Shown here piece after piece: positions 7,843 through 14,063 of a DNA stretch of 64,000 bases. Within the stretch, counting starts at the first letter, position 1. Every line of letters starts with the position of its first letter. The notes beneath the pieces are model-generated. The model was not told the DNA's origin. It searched no databases and worked only from the letters and a program-made list of their open reading frames with translations. Made by a program: the position numbers and the translations under genes. The stretch is from Anaerococcus mediterraneensis (GTDB lineage Bacteria; Bacillota; Clostridia; Tissierellales; Peptoniphilaceae): contig NZ_LT635772.1 of assembly GCF_900128415.1 (NCBI RefSeq), forward strand, positions 1,922,001-1,986,000. Direction: 5' to 3'.

Positions 7843-7871
7843 ATTGTATCAAATTTAACATAATATTTCAA
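7843..7871 (-). promoter_or_regulatory. Promoter of hydrogenase operon
   Basis: TTGAAA and TACAAT with exactly 17 bp between them on the minus strand. The -35 box overlaps the last codons of the sensor kinase gene, so no terminator separates the pst/pho operon from this one. Confidence 0.7.
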
Positions 7872-9190
7872 TATAGGTCTGGCTTATCGTCGATTTTAAT
7901 ATCTATAATAAAGGTTGAACCCTGACCTAGTTTGCTTTCTAATTTTATATCCATATCCAAAAAGTCTGCTATGTGCTTAGCTATAGATAGGCCAAGGCCT
8001 GTTGATTTTACATTTCTATCCCTAGCTTTGTCCGCCACATAAAATCTTTCAAAAACTCTCTTTTGGTCAGGTCCGCTTATACCAACACCTGTATCCTTTA
8101 TAAATATCCTAAGAGATTTTTCTAAGAGAAGAGAAGAAATGATTATATCTCCATTTTCTACATTATATTTTATAGCATTCTCATAGATATTTGTCAACAA
8201 ATCTGTAAAAAGTGACCTAGAGGTATAGACCCTAAAAGAAGCTAAGTTATTTTCTACTTTTATAGATTTTTGGTCAGACTTTCTTTTAAACTTTTCTATT
8301 ATTTTATCCATCTCTTCTTTTACATCTACATAGGTTTTTTCTATAGTCTGGCCCTTGTCATCAAGCTTTGAAATCCTTATGATATCGTCAATCATATCTA
8401 GGAGCCTGTTGCCCTCTTCATATATGATTTTGGCAAATTTTTCTATATCATCTTCTTTGGCAATCCCTGTGGCTATGAGCTCTGCATAGCCATTTATAGA
8501 AGTCAAAGGACTTTTTAGCTCATGGCTGACATTGGATGAAAATTCTTTTCTCATAAGCTCTGCTTTTCTACTTTCCGAGTAGTCTATGACTATAACAACA
8601 AAACCCAGGCTTGCATTTTCACTTATAGGATCTATAAAAACCTTTAGGTGGTAGCCATTTAGGTCTAGGGATAGGCTTTTTGATTTTGATAGGATCTTGG
8701 CCTCTTTAACAGCGAGTTTGTAATCTTTGTCATCTATTAGATTATCAAGATTTGTAGACTCATCTTTCAATAAATAGGATTTTGCAGAATCATTTATAAG
8801 CTCTACTGATCCTTTGCCATCAAAGACTATAAAACCCTCCTCCATATTGGAGGCTATATTTTTTATCTCCTTGATTTGTCTTTTTAGGAGGGAAATATTT
8901 TTTTCTAGGCTGACATTTTTTCTCAAAAGTTTTCTATAGATCTTGCCAGCGTCTTCAAAATCTTCGGCCATGCCATCAAAATCATAAAATCTGTCAAATT
9001 TTGATACGCTTTTGCTATATTCGTCTAATTTTTTGTCAATATATATATTATTTGCCAAAAGTAGTAGAAAAAAAACCAAGTACAAAATTAGTGTCGGCAT
9101 ATATATTTTTGTATATAGAGAAAAAACCATAGCAAAAATACTAGCTATGGTTATTGAGATTATCAATGATTTTTTAGTTAATTTATTCAT
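7868..9190 (-). CDS. phoR: Phosphate-responsive sensor histidine kinase, PhoR-like
   Basis: 440 residues. Two transmembrane helices lie at about 8-25 and 31-48 with almost no external loop. A coiled segment and a PAS-like domain (about 110-205) follow, then the dimerisation domain with the phospho-acceptor His223 in SHELKSPLTS and an ATPase domain with NAIKYN, DTGVGIS and GLGLSIAKH boxes. It overlaps the response-regulator gene by an ATGA junction. Lack of an extracellular domain is as in PhoR proteins that read transporter state through PstB and PhoU, which are encoded just upstream. Assignment rests on that context. Confidence 0.88.
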   Translation of the reverse strand: MNKLTKKSLIISITIASIFAMVFSLYTKIYMPTLILYLVFFLLLLANNIYIDKKLDEYSKSVSKFDRFYDFDGMAEDFEDAGKIYRKLLRKNVSLEKNISLLKRQIKEIKNIASNMEEGFIVFDGKGSVELINDSAKSYLLKDESTNLDNLIDDKDYKLAVKEAKILSKSKSLSLDLNGYHLKVFIDPISENASLGFVVIVIDYSESRKAELMRKEFSSNVSHELKSPLTSINGYAELIATGIAKEDDIEKFAKIIYEEGNRLLDMIDDIIRISKLDDKGQTIEKTYVDVKEEMDKIIEKFKRKSDQKSIKVENNLASFRVYTSRSLFTDLLTNIYENAIKYNVENGDIIISSLLLEKSLRIFIKDTGVGISGPDQKRVFERFYVADKARDRNVKSTGLGLSIAKHIADFLDMDIKLESKLGQGSTFIIDIKIDDKPDLY

Positions 9191-9846
9191 ATTTCACCAA
9201 ATTTATACCCTAAATTCCTAACAGTTTTGATAAAATCTCCTGAGCCTTTGAGTTTTGACCTGAGGCTTGCTATATGGACATCTACAGTCCTGGTCTCCCC
9301 CTGGTAGTCATAGCCCCAAATTTTTAAAAGAAAATCATCTCTTTTTATGACATTGCCTATATTTTTCATAAAATATTGGAGCATCTCAAATTCTTTAAAG
9401 GTTAACTCTACCTTTTCACCATCGATTTCTACTGTTCTTTTTTTGGTATTCATTATGATATTTTTATAGGAAAGCTGACTGTCATCACTCTTTTTTGAAC
9501 GCCTCAAAACTGCCTTGACCCTGCTTATAAGCTCAAGGATAGAAAAAGGCTTGGATATATAATCATCTGCCCCACTTTCAAGACCCATGACTTTGTCAAA
9601 CTCATCTGTCTTGGCAGTCAGAATTATAACTGGCAGATCAGAGAAGGTCCTGATCTCTTTCAGGATGGAAATCCCATCTTTTTTGGGTAACATCAGATCC
9701 AAAATCAAAAGGTCACATGGGTCTTTTTTTATAAGATCTACAATCTCTCCCCCGTCTTCAAAGCTTTCTACCTCATAGCCTTTTTCTTTTAGGGCATAGG
9801 CCACTAGGTTTCTAATTGACTTGTCATCTTCCACTACATATATCAT
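9187..9846 (-). CDS. phoP: Response regulator, PhoP/PhoB-like
   Basis: 219-residue OmpR-class regulator. The receiver domain has acidic residues EDD at 6-8, phospho-acceptor Asp50 in ILDLMLP and Lys in ISKPF. A winged-helix DNA-binding domain follows from about residue 125, with VDVHIASLRSKL and a final VRNLGYKF. It begins one base inside the phoU stop (TAATG) behind GAGG. It is probably the activator of the pst promoter, where three 11-bp-spaced repeats match the PhoP pattern. Confidence 0.9.
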   Translation of the reverse strand: MIYVVEDDKSIRNLVAYALKEKGYEVESFEDGGEIVDLIKKDPCDLLILDLMLPKKDGISILKEIRTFSDLPVIILTAKTDEFDKVMGLESGADDYISKPFSILELISRVKAVLRRSKKSDDSQLSYKNIIMNTKKRTVEIDGEKVELTFKEFEMLQYFMKNIGNVIKRDDFLLKIWGYDYQGETRTVDVHIASLRSKLKGSGDFIKTVRNLGYKFGEI

Positions 9847-10463
9847 TATAACCTCGTTGCTAAGTCTGCTACTCTTGCCAGCCTATCTCCTAATCTTTCA
9901 AAGTATTTAAAAAGCAAGATTTTGTTTGATAGGTCAAGAGCATCTATTTTTTCTTCTTTGTTTTCTTTGGCAGAAAAATTTATTGCCTCTACAAAGATTT
10001 TATTGTTGATTTGATCTTTTTCAATAGTCTTTAGGGCCAAATCATGATCTTTGTTATTAAAGGCTTCTATACCATCCTTGACCATTTGCTTTTGATTGTC
10101 TAAAAATCTATTTAAAAAATCTATCTCTTGACCTTTTACATCAAATTCTTTTAGGATCTGAGCTACTGATACTAGGTGGCTTGCTATTCTTTTTTGGCTT
10201 GATGCAAGCTTTATTTCCATTTGCAAAAACCTCAAGTCACTGGCTACAGGCTGTTGTAAGGCCAAGAGCTCAAAGCAAAATCTCTCTATACCACTAGCAG
10301 CCCTTCTAATTTCTTCTCCTAAATCTATTATATCATCTAAGTTATCGACATTTTTATTTTCTAAATATAGGTCGATCCTCTCATAGGAGATTAGGATCAG
10401 CTGCATGACATCTGCTCCCATTTTTTTTATAGATTCTAAATCGCTGTTGTATCTAAATCTCAT
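9846..10463 (-). CDS. phoU: Phosphate signalling protein PhoU
   Basis: About 205 residues, all helical, made of two PhoU repeats (around residues 10-95 and 110-200), the normal length for the family. PhoU links PstB to the PhoR kinase and represses the regulon when phosphate is plentiful. I place the start at the ATG at 10463, ten bases after AGGAAGG, rather than at the TTG nine bases upstream, which sits on the ribosome site. The pstB stop codon is one base upstream of this ATG. Confidence 0.9.
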   Translation of the reverse strand: MRFRYNSDLESIKKMGADVMQLILISYERIDLYLENKNVDNLDDIIDLGEEIRRAASGIERFCFELLALQQPVASDLRFLQMEIKLASSQKRIASHLVSVAQILKEFDVKGQEIDFLNRFLDNQKQMVKDGIEAFNNKDHDLALKTIEKDQINNKIFVEAINFSAKENKEEKIDALDLSNKILLFKYFERLGDRLARVADLATRL

Positions 10464-10464
10464 A

Positions 10465-11313
10465 TCAACCAAACCTTCCTGTTATATAATCTTCGGTTCT
10501 CTTGTCAGCCGGGTCATTGAAAATCTTTAAGGTCTTATCCATTTCTATAACCTCACCTGTAAGGAAAAATGCAGTTTCATCTGAGATCCTGGCTGCTTGT
10601 TGCATATTGTGAGTTACTATGACAATAGTGTATTTTTCTTTTAGCTGGTCACAAAGATCTTCTATGGCTGATGTTGATATAGGGTCAAGGGCACTTGTTG
10701 GCTCATCCATCAAAATTATTTTTGGATCTACTGAAAGACTCCTAGCTATACAAATCCTCTGTTGCTGACCACCAGAAAAAGATAGGGCGTTTTGTTTTAG
10801 TTTATCTTTGACCTCATCCCAAATAGCAGCTGATTTCAGGGACCTTTCTACAATCTCATCTAATTTGTCCTTATCTTTTATACCTGAGATTCTCGGTCCA
10901 TAGCTTATATTATCATAAACTGACTTTGAAAATGGGTTTGGTGACTGAAAAACCATCCCTACATTTCGACGAAGATTTACAACATCAACATCTTTTTTAT
11001 AAATATCTTGGCCTTCTACTTCGATTAGGCCCTCTATTTTGCAGTCATCTACCAAGTCATTCATCCTATTAAAACATTTAAGTGTAGTAGATTTACCGCA
11101 CCCAGAAGGTCCTATAAAAGCTGTGACTTTATTCTTTTTAATATCCATATTTACATTTTTTAGGGCCTGAAAGTCTCCATAATATAAATTCAGGTCTTTG
11201 ACAAAGATTGCGCTCTCATCACCCATATTGTTCATTTGGAGTTTTTCCCTATTATCTTTAACATTCTTGTTTTTTATTTCAATTTTTTTATCCAAAATAT
11301 GATCCTTATTCAT
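10465..11313 (-). CDS. pstB: Phosphate ABC transporter ATPase PstB
   Basis: ATPase of the phosphate importer. Walker [10 protein letters not shown] near residue 69, signature [10 protein letters not shown], Walker [12 protein letters not shown] and the typical C-terminal [13 protein letters not shown] are all present. AGGAG favours the ATG at 11313, giving 282 residues. That is roughly 30-40 residues longer at the N-terminus than ordinary PstB; the extra segment is Lys/Asp-rich and of unknown function. The alternative upstream start at 11331 overlaps pstA. Confidence 0.92.
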
Positions 11314-11323
11314 CAATATTCTC

Positions 11324-12139
11324 CTAGGCATTTACAATTTTTTTGCTGATCTTTGTAGATATAAAGTTTATTAGAACTACAAAAACTAGTAGGAGGACAG
11401 CTGTGGCGTAGGCTTCTTTGACATGAAATCCTTCGCTAGAAAGCACATACATATGGACTGCCATGGTTCTAGCAGATTTGAACAAGCCTTTTGGTATATC
11501 AGTATTAGATCCCATAGTGAAAATTAGGGCTGCTGATTCACCTACAATCCTACCTGTTGATAAAAATATCCCCCCGAGAATCCCATCCATAGCATCAGGG
11601 ATTACAACCTTAAATATGGTTTGAATCTTTGTCGCTCCAAGGGCAAGGGAGGCGTGTGCTTGGAGAGGATTTACTGTCAAAATCGCCTCCTCAGTTGTCC
11701 TTATGAGGGTTGGCAATACCATAATTGCCACAGTCAAACAGCCTGCAAGGAGCGAATACTGCATACCTAGACCATGACCTGCATTTGATACAAAAAACAA
11801 ATAACCAAAAAGGCCATAAACTATAGAGGGAATTGAAGATAGGATTTCAGTAGAAAACCTAACTGCCTTTATCAAAAACTTGTTTTTTGCATAATTTGAT
11901 AGGTAAATCGCTGTAAATATCCCTATGGGAAGGGCAATTATCAAGGTCAATCCTATGGTCAAAAGTGTTGTAATAAGTGCAGGCATTAGGGAAACATTCT
12001 CTGTTGTGTATTTTAATTCAAATAAACCAGGAGATATATTTGGTATGCCTTTGATCAAAATATAGGCAATTACAATCCCTGCCATGGCATAGCCAATTGT
12101 TGTGAGGGCCATTATCATGCCTTTATAAAATTTGCTCAT
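11324..12139 (-). CDS. pstA: Phosphate ABC transporter permease PstA
   Basis: 271-residue permease with six hydrophobic segments and the binding-protein-dependent transport loop containing [13 protein letters not shown], which contacts PstB. It follows pstC by 8 bp. GGAGATTTT precedes the ATG. Together with PstC it forms the membrane channel of the high-affinity phosphate importer. Confidence 0.92.
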
Positions 12140-12147
12140 AAAATCTC

Positions 12148-13011
12148 CTATAATCTTTCTTCGGTTTTACTTCTAACTATGTTAAAAATAATGTTAACAA
12201 TGAGGATAAAGAAAAATAAAACCATACCTGTTGCAATTAGGGCCTGCCTGTGCATGCCTGATGCATATCCCATTTCAAGAACTATATTTGTTGTTAGGGT
12301 CCTAGCCCCCTTTAAAATTGATTCTGGCATAAGGGGTTGGTTACCTATTACTAGGTAAACTGCCATGGTTTCTCCTATTGCCCTGCCTATGGCAAGGATT
12401 ATAGATGAAAAAATACCAGACCTGGCATAAGGAACCATGACCTTGGATATAGTTTGTTCTTTGGTCGCCCCAAGGGCCAAAGATCCTGTCATAAAAGTCT
12501 TTGGCACTTGTCTTAGGGAGTTTTCAGAAATATTTACCATGGTTGGCAAGATCATTATGGCAAGTAGTATGGATGCTGTGAGCATATTCATGCCAGATTT
12601 TATCTGAAATATGTCTTTGACCCAGGGTACTATAACCATCATTGCAAAAAAACCATATACTACCGATGGTATAGCTGCCATGAGGTTGATAAGTGATTTT
12701 AATGGTCCGTAGGTTTTTTTTGAATAATAGGCCATAAATATAGAAATTCCTAGTCCAAAAGGGAGGGCTATAATTGTTGATAAAAAAGTTACGATAAGTG
12801 ATCCTATAATCATCGGGTAGATACCAAATTTTGGATTGCCTGCAGTTGGTTTCCACACCTTGCCGGTTATGAATTTTAAAAGTCCGTACTCATTTACAAA
12901 CTTAATCCCCTCAGAAAATATGAAAAAGATTATAAGAAGTATCAGAAATACGGACATTACTGCAGACAAGAGGAAAATTATCTCGCCGATTTTTTCTCTT
13001 GTCTTGTTCAT
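12148..13011 (-). CDS. pstC: Phosphate ABC transporter permease PstC
   Basis: 287-residue permease with six membrane segments and the EAA-type loop [13 protein letters not shown]. The gene is second in the pst operon, one base after pstS, with AGGAAAATAAA before its ATG. Length and segment order are typical of PstC. Confidence 0.92.
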   Translation of the reverse strand: MNKTREKIGEIIFLLSAVMSVFLILLIIFFIFSEGIKFVNEYGLLKFITGKVWKPTAGNPKFGIYPMIIGSLIVTFLSTIIALPFGLGISIFMAYYSKKTYGPLKSLINLMAAIPSVVYGFFAMMVIVPWVKDIFQIKSGMNMLTASILLAIMILPTMVNISENSLRQVPKTFMTGSLALGATKEQTISKVMVPYARSGIFSSIILAIGRAIGETMAVYLVIGNQPLMPESILKGARTLTTNIVLEMGYASGMHRQALIATGMVLFFFILIVNIIFNIVRSKTEERL

Positions 13012-13012
13012 T

Positions 13013-13978
13013 TTATTTTCCTAATTCGCTTGTATTTTTAAGTTCGCCCTTAAATATTTGTTTAAGTTCATCCATTGTTAGGTCTTCAACCTTGCTTTCA
13101 TTGTTGACAATTACAGCTATACCGTCTGTTGCTATTACTTCTACAGCAAGTTTTTCTTTTTCTTCATCTTTTAGCTCTCTTGAGGCCATAGCTATATCTG
13201 CTGCTCCATCGATAACTGCTTCTATACCAGCAGATGATCCTGTAGATTGGATTTCGATTGTAGCATCTGGGTTTAGCTCTTTATATTTTTCTGCCATTTT
13301 TTCTATAAGTGGGGTTACAGATGTAGAACCAGCTACTGTTAGGGTTCCTGAAACTTTTCCAGCTTCATATTTTTCTGTCTCTTGTAGTGGAACATAGCCT
13401 TCTTCTGAGCTTATAGCTTGGGCTTGTTCTGATAGGCAGAATTTCAAAAAGTCTTTTGCAAGATCATTTATTTCTGCTTCTTTGAAGGCTAGGTTAAATG
13501 GTCTTGAGATTTTGTATGAACCATTTACTATATTTTCTTCTGTAGCTTCTACGCCTTCAATTTTGACAGCCTTTACTGTATCATTTAGAGATCCTAGAGA
13601 AATATAACCGATAGCTGCGGAATCCTGGCTAACTGTTTGCATAACAGCGTTGGTTGAGTTTTGTACAATGGCTTCCTGGGTTGTCATATCTTCTTTTTGG
13701 CCATCTACTTCTTCTTCAAGACCAACAAGCTCTATAAAAGCGCCTCTTGTACCAGAACCATCTTCTCTAGATACTACTGAAAAATCATAGTCTTCTGCGC
13801 TTGCTTCAGTATTTTCTTCTTCTTTGTTTTCCTCTGGAGCTTGTGCTGTTTCTGTTTGAGTAGTTTCTGTCTTTACAGATTCATCTTTTGCATCTTTTTC
13901 TCCATTGTTGCCACATCCTGCTAGGATTAGACCTAGTGAAAGACTTGCTGCTAGTATTTTTTTATTTGTAATTTTCAT
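13013..13978 (-). CDS. pstS: Phosphate-binding lipoprotein PstS, circularly permuted
   Basis: 321-residue lipoprotein: lipobox LILAGC with Cys22, then an acidic linker to about residue 62. The half that normally forms the C-terminal part of PstS comes first (SREDGSGTRGAF at 70-81, IGYISLGSL, EEGYVPL near 193-198). A short linker (about 199-209) leads into the normal beginning (TLTVAGSTSVTPL at 212-224, STGSSAG at 245-251, MASRELKDEE, FKGEL) and the protein stops at SELGK. Joining the end to the beginning restores the usual order, so this is a circular permutation, not a truncation. All phosphate-contacting loops are kept. GGAGATAAAA supports the start. I recall similar domain order in other Clostridia, so it may be a family feature. 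Confidence 0.9.
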   Translation of the reverse strand: MKITNKKILAASLSLGLILAGCGNNGEKDAKDESVKTETTQTETAQAPEENKEEENTEASAEDYDFSVVSREDGSGTRGAFIELVGLEEEVDGQKEDMTTQEAIVQNSTNAVMQTVSQDSAAIGYISLGSLNDTVKAVKIEGVEATEENIVNGSYKISRPFNLAFKEAEINDLAKDFLKFCLSEQAQAISSEEGYVPLQETEKYEAGKVSGTLTVAGSTSVTPLIEKMAEKYKELNPDATIEIQSTGSSAGIEAVIDGAADIAMASRELKDEEKEKLAVEVIATDGIAVIVNNESKVEDLTMDELKQIFKGELKNTSELGK

Positions 13979-14009: not shown

Positions 14010-14063
14010 ATCATACTAGGTCAATATGCGATAGGTTTTAAGCCCTTGTAAAATAAATGTAAA
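14010..14063 (-). promoter_or_regulatory. pst promoter with PhoP-box-like repeats
   Basis: On the minus strand TTTACA, TTTACA and TTAAAA follow each other with an exact 11-bp period (58-63, 47-52 and 36-41 of the 14000s), the layout of Bacillus PhoP boxes. TATGAT (14010-14015) is a plausible -10 element. Its -35 position falls on the last repeat and is poor, as expected for an activated promoter. Confidence 0.75.

Follow-up and report, generated by a model that had tools for sequence, protein, structure and literature searches.

Circularly permuted PstS at the head of the pst operon of Anaerococcus mediterraneensis

The closest described relative of the protein studied here belongs to Streptococcus pneumoniae. 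For strain D39 two phosphate transporters, Pst1 and Pst2, are reported, each of which suffices on its own at 1 mM phosphate; Pst2, whose binding protein is PstS2, takes up phosphate; an unencapsulated pst1 pst2 double mutant loses about half of the uptake rate; and a phoU2 mutant regains its growth yield when any one component of Pst2 is removed (data not shown by the authors) (PMC4913102). The string 'permut' is absent from the main text of that report. The subject of the present work is the pstS gene of Anaerococcus mediterraneensis (positions 13013-13978, minus strand) in a 64,000-nucleotide stretch of contig NZ_LT635772.1 (positions 1,922,001 to 1,986,000), hereafter the window. Its product has the same order of chain halves as pneumococcal PstS2 (SP_2084, structure 4H1X; 44% identity), and we are highly confident that it is a functional, circularly permuted PstS of a Pst ATP-binding cassette (ABC) importer, resulting from an old permutation and accompanied by its own PstC lineage. 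The pneumococcal PstS2 operon is constitutive, and S. pneumoniae also has a canonical PstS1, whereas the permuted copy stands alone in the window genome. The first-pass annotation of the window knew of no functional description of the permuted order; a structure, 4H1X, and functional data on its transporter do exist. No account of PstS as a circular permutation was found among the papers listed by the literature searches, most subscription journals lying outside their scope. The available part of one paper contains neither 'phosphate' nor 'substrate-binding' (PMC12667903, CIRPIN), and that of another lacks 'permut' (PMC12096839). A Protein Data Bank entry whose title speaks of an 'evolutionary hotspot', 9l8j, may bear on the question.

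A second natural example of a circularly permuted, lipid-tethered ABC-importer binding protein is TpMglB-2 (Tp0684) of Treponema pallidum. Its homologues are placed mostly in treponemes and Gram-positives, and its authors regard the permuted topology as possibly suited to membrane anchoring (PMC4990184). The window PstS resembles TpMglB-2 in being a permuted, tethered binding protein of an ABC importer. TpMglB-2 was not among the structure matches listed for the model of the window PstS, an absence that still allows for kinship. It is a Type I glucose binder with another cut and an extra hinge crossing, and probably belongs to a different fold class. Both halves of the window PstS align over nearly the whole chain of the canonical Clostridium proteins 4Q8R and 4GD5 (the latter with phosphate bound, by its entry title) and have the same loops, but these proteins keep the usual N-then-C order.

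The open reading frame (ORF) of 321 codons starts with ATG, preceded by AAGGAG, and ends with TAA. All segments described below are on the minus strand. A signal peptide is followed by the lipobox L19-A-G-C22 (13913-13924), whose Cys22 is expected to be lipid-anchored, and by an acidic low-complexity tether (residues 23-63, 13790-13912) modelled with low confidence. The usual C-terminal half comes first in the chain (residues 64-198, 13385-13789) and contains the SREDGSGTR loop (residues 70-78, 13745-13771), which is conserved in permuted proteins. An 11-residue bridge (199-209, 13352-13384) connects the old C-terminus to the old N-terminus, and the usual N-terminal half comes last (210-321, 13016-13351), with the similarly conserved GSTSV loop (217-221, 13316-13330). 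The halves and the bridge were delimited by alignment to 4q8r and by hidden Markov models of the separate halves (half-HMMs). Thus the usual PstS order, N-half before C-half, is not found in the window protein.

The Pfam family PF12849 matched the window PstS with 128.3 bits (cut-off 27), but the match was split into two stretches. The better one aligned residues 205-315 with profile positions 4-122 of 267, and in the genome scan the match to profile positions 129-266 lay upstream of that to positions 4-125. Similarly, chain positions 3-114 of 4q8r aligned with window residues 210-320 and positions 114-245 with residues 60-198. The two matches meet at chain position 114, so that a single point of the canonical chain corresponds to both new termini. 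The alignment with 4H1X, in contrast, was collinear and covered both halves in a single stretch; among the 36 Protein Data Bank sequences matched by the profile of alignment A2, only 4h1x spanned both halves in this way. 4EXL (PstS 1), which we assume to be pneumococcal, aligned with the window PstS in swapped stretches. All 52 other sequences of A2 (45-82% identity to the window PstS) have the same order and the same ends, which places the swapped order beyond chance. The swapped order is genuine. The first-pass annotation had read from the letters a lipobox and linker ahead of exchanged halves, both new ends at one loop and old termini joined by about eleven residues, and all of these features were borne out.

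Structure prediction, one of the checks proposed with that annotation, gave one bilobal fold matching the crystal structure 4H1X. Calling the segments half-domains was only partly right: two chain halves are swapped, but they are not the two lobes. Based on the strand order of the model and on the topology that we assume for periplasmic binding proteins, each half would contribute to both lobes, and the cut would lie inside lobe II, in the loop directly before the strand entering the SREDGSGTR loop. The idea that the cut mirrors the natural N-terminus through related halves gained no support, as hhalign detected no similarity between the N-half and the C-half (probability 0.2%). By analogy with other binding proteins, phosphate binding by the window PstS is most likely of the usual kind, with the anchor on the other lobe. 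It would hold phosphate between the lobes, close like its relatives and pass the ion to PstC/PstA, while the flexible linker would tether it via lobe II rather than lobe I. Such proteins offer a natural test of how tether position and chain order affect an ABC importer.

Some results weigh against this assignment. The NCBIfam model TIGR02136 scored 206.0 bits in two stretches, 0.6 short of its cut-off of 206.6. The alignment used for structure prediction consisted of permuted rows only, and canonical PstS chains matched the model half-wise only. At low phosphate the chief carrier of S. pneumoniae is the canonical Pst1 rather than Pst2, and losing only Pst2 did not change the uptake rate (PMC4913102). 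Phosphate binding by the window PstS is itself something we infer by analogy. The protein is not filed as a TIGR02136 member; its homology, its site residues and its operon are the grounds for calling it a permuted PstS. Its order is genuine and conserved, and function is ascribed to it from the relative with a solved structure.

The permuted order is widespread. At E 1e-20 the window PstS had a match in 119 of the 291 class genomes, and in 56 of these, counted by hand, the match was collinear over the full span in one open frame, which is the permuted order. One further genome (G460) had a fragment crossing the half junction, and the remaining matches were half matches. Sixteen of 398 phylum genomes had matches at E 1e-38; two of these were fused canonical genes, leaving 14 permuted by span. 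TIGR02136, which detects either order, had matches in 303 of an equal number of genomes at E 1e-5. When the best 80 of 576 relatives, each covering both halves, were identified by name, they included Lachnospiraceae (23), Peptoniphilaceae (16) and Oscillospiraceae (6), 22 sequences without a family, and also Streptococcus hillyeri and Aerococcus. Aedoeadaptatus ivorii and Peptoniphilus genitalis have the order on complete chromosomes. The early impression that other Clostridia have it was therefore correct but too narrow, as the spread extends to Streptococcus, Aerococcus and Treponema. A Helicobacteraceae metagenome-assembled genome (MAG) with a permuted PstS (L128) may be mis-binned. The half-HMMs assigned ORFs of the first 163 loci to 129 permuted and 42 canonical proteins and to no other order; since permuted queries retrieved most of these loci, and some loci overlap, the ratio should not be read as a frequency. 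In 127 of the 129 permuted ORFs the two half-models were 7-15 residues apart.

On plasmids of Treponema saccharophilum and Monoglobus a permuted pstS heads pstCAB-phoU. Both records name pstC, pstA and pstB and label the permuted copy only as a 'substrate-binding domain-containing protein', which indicates that the permuted order can hide pstS from annotation. Permuted PstS occurs across many Firmicutes families and on a treponeme plasmid, and for one member both a structure and a study of its physiology exist. In a genome of the window's own family (G026) PstS is canonical and branches far from the others (L144, 4371-5297), and the pst operon of that genome probably has a different history. 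Three unannotated 'Bacteriophage sp.' records contain short stretches 66-72% identical to the locus (e.g. MT837530.1, 3130-3417), possibly bacterial DNA in a phage collection.

Phylogenetic trees were built after re-ordering all PstS sequences to N-C. In the large tree (134 rows, from 163 distinct sequences past the length filter with near-copies dropped) 98 of the 99 permuted rows were on one side of a branch with support 87, and with midpoint rooting they nested among clostridial canonical PstS. Streptococcus, Aerococcus and Treponema sat inside the permuted group, as transfer would give. The lone permuted row outside, on a very long branch, was L149 from genome G604. Without it the permuted rows of a 70-row tree formed one group with one order change. 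For the PstC tree the 116 permuted operons were thinned to 84; of these, 83 were on one branch with support 100, and L149, again on a very long branch, was outside. Permuted PstS would thus have been inherited together with its own PstC lineage.

L149 belongs to a divergent set (f163) of proteins from genomes G604, G775, G776 and G781. In the family of G604, nine of 12 genomes matched its PstS, and the proteins of G775 and G776 are of the same kind. The draft assembly G781 has one ORF of 973 amino acids (L196, 4693-7614) with three permuted units, C-N-C-N-C-N. The PstC encoded in the L196 operon is divergent, and the PstA has about 410 amino acids. G779 carries a permuted copy of the main type, cut by a contig end, and G420, G774 and G777 carry canonical PstS.

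These proteins raise the alternative that the chain was permuted twice, independently and at the same loop, once in the main group and once in the f163 set; we consider this improbable, but of the rival explanations it survives best. Several observations speak for it and against a single origin. The two groups were separate in free trees of PstS and PstC; in the 70-row tree L149 was outside in 200 of 200 bootstrap trees and one group appeared in 0 of 200. Even without f163, support for one group was moderate (75 with three more rows, 93/85 in another tree). The PstB tree splits the permuted operons (3 changes, 11 rows), and as a marker of them PstB gave no clear answer. The approximately unbiased (AU) test just rejected one group when L149 alone represented f163 (p 0.040), but did not reject it with six f163 units (p 0.227). 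Moreover, the f163 stem is long (1.4), which weakens its placing, and by eye the cuts of the two groups agree to within a few residues. As judged from these trees, the permutation is old, and because of the two AU results a single origin is the plain reading, with two possible.

The first-pass annotation also proposed an origin by tandem duplication and trimming, which is plausible. Two genomes have a pst operon headed by an in-frame fusion of two whole canonical domains, N-C-N-C, of 527 amino acids (L166, protein P0121, 4347-5930, from a 3.8 Mb single contig of Clostridium sp.; L167, 4129-5712). They consist of the same halves at the same operon position and have the architecture expected before trimming, but their units are canonical. 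Direct kinship with the permuted group gained no support, because the L166/L167 units are on a separate branch; this counts against the proposed route, as they are parallels and not the ancestor. Among 240 proteins further fusions were found (three N-C-N-C, three N-C-N-C-N-C and one C-N-C-N); where their source is labelled, it is a metagenome or a MAG. The fused units show that permutation by duplication is open to pstS, not that this route was taken. Putative trimming intermediates, namely P0158 (N-C-N) and the C-N-C proteins P0128, P0129, P0131, P0143 and P0189, were considered and none was used. As far as SREEGSGTR, P0158 is by eye identical to canonical PstS from G683, beyond which it continues as permuted sequence; P0129 and P0143 begin alike but diverge further on; these three are probably metagenome assembly chimeras joined at conserved motifs. 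By extension we infer the same for P0128, P0131 and P0189, recombination being the alternative. When P0158 was searched against 391 genomes of the class, no full-length N-C-N protein was among the matches at E 1e-80 or better. The permutation would have arisen once, perhaps twice, most likely from a trimmed tandem-duplicated pstS. More tentatively, permuted PstS could define its own type of Pst transporter, with a distinct PstC lineage, docking altered by the lobe II tether, a loop cut perhaps twice and units still duplicating into two- and three-domain binders.

The claim of a full pst operon was upheld by family models. Downstream of pstS, on the same strand, follow pstC (12148-13011; TIGR02138, 282.6 bits, cut-off 196.45), pstA (11324-12139; TIGR00974, 236.6 bits, cut-off 193.45), pstB (10465-11331; TIGR00972, 409.6 bits, cut-off 343.2), phoU (9846-10472; PF01895, 69.7 bits, cut-off 23.5; no NCBIfam match at E 1e-30), a PhoB/PhoP-like response regulator (9187-9846; PF00072 and PF00486; best NCBIfam TIGR02154, under cut-off) and a PnpS/PhoR-like sensor histidine kinase (7868-9190; PF00512 and PF02518; best NCBIfam NF046044 PnpS, under cut-off). 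Distances between the genes range from an 8-base overlap to an 8-base space. A PHO-type box, TTTACA-N5-TTTACA, lies 85 bases before the ATG (14047-14063, minus strand). The form TTWACA-N5-TTWACA, which we take from Bacillus as that of the PHO box, was sought in 121 distinct regions reaching from 250 bases ahead of the ORF start of permuted pstS to 30 bases past it, tandem copies included; 69 of them contained it, whereas shuffling in two-base blocks gave an expectation of 0.08. From locus L064 onwards, 94 of 97 permuted ORFs had pstC as their first downstream transporter gene (a second pstS may intervene), and pstC, pstA and pstB all followed in 87 of 90 with room.

The window PstS has the phosphate-loop residues R71, S75, G76, T77, S218, S220 and S248, their role being presumed from work on E. 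coli PstS. Among 122 distinct permuted proteins R71, S75, G76 and T77 were kept in 120 (the other two are gapped), and G217, S218, S220, S248 and D285 in all. Four have N instead of R267; these are the downstream tandem copies of four genomes belonging to the genus, of which three bear the name Anaerococcus. Since these copies indicate that the ligand can diverge, a permuted protein might bind another anion or act as a sensor rather than a phosphate carrier. For the window protein this is very unlikely: it keeps the conserved loop residues, heads a pst operon and carries a PHO-type box, and no other protein of the 2.08 Mb genome exceeds the PF12849 cut-off, one weak match elsewhere scoring 25 bits. 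That two pstS genes or a rearranged contig were read as one through a sequencing, assembly or frame error, as the chimera-like P0158 might suggest, can be dismissed, since the genome is one 2.08 Mb contig and the same order occurs in named isolates, including the complete A. ivorii and P. genitalis chromosomes, and in pneumococcal PstS2 as crystallised.

Some genomes of the genus have, downstream of the first copy, another permuted pstS that has diverged (L035, 467-1330; L065, 2745-3653; L066, 6094-6954; L068, 6097-6957). In a longer piece of the L035 locus (L147) it immediately precedes pstC. The loops of the second copy read NESLTG and SNK where the window PstS has GSSAG and SRE, changes which suggest another ligand or loss of the ligand.
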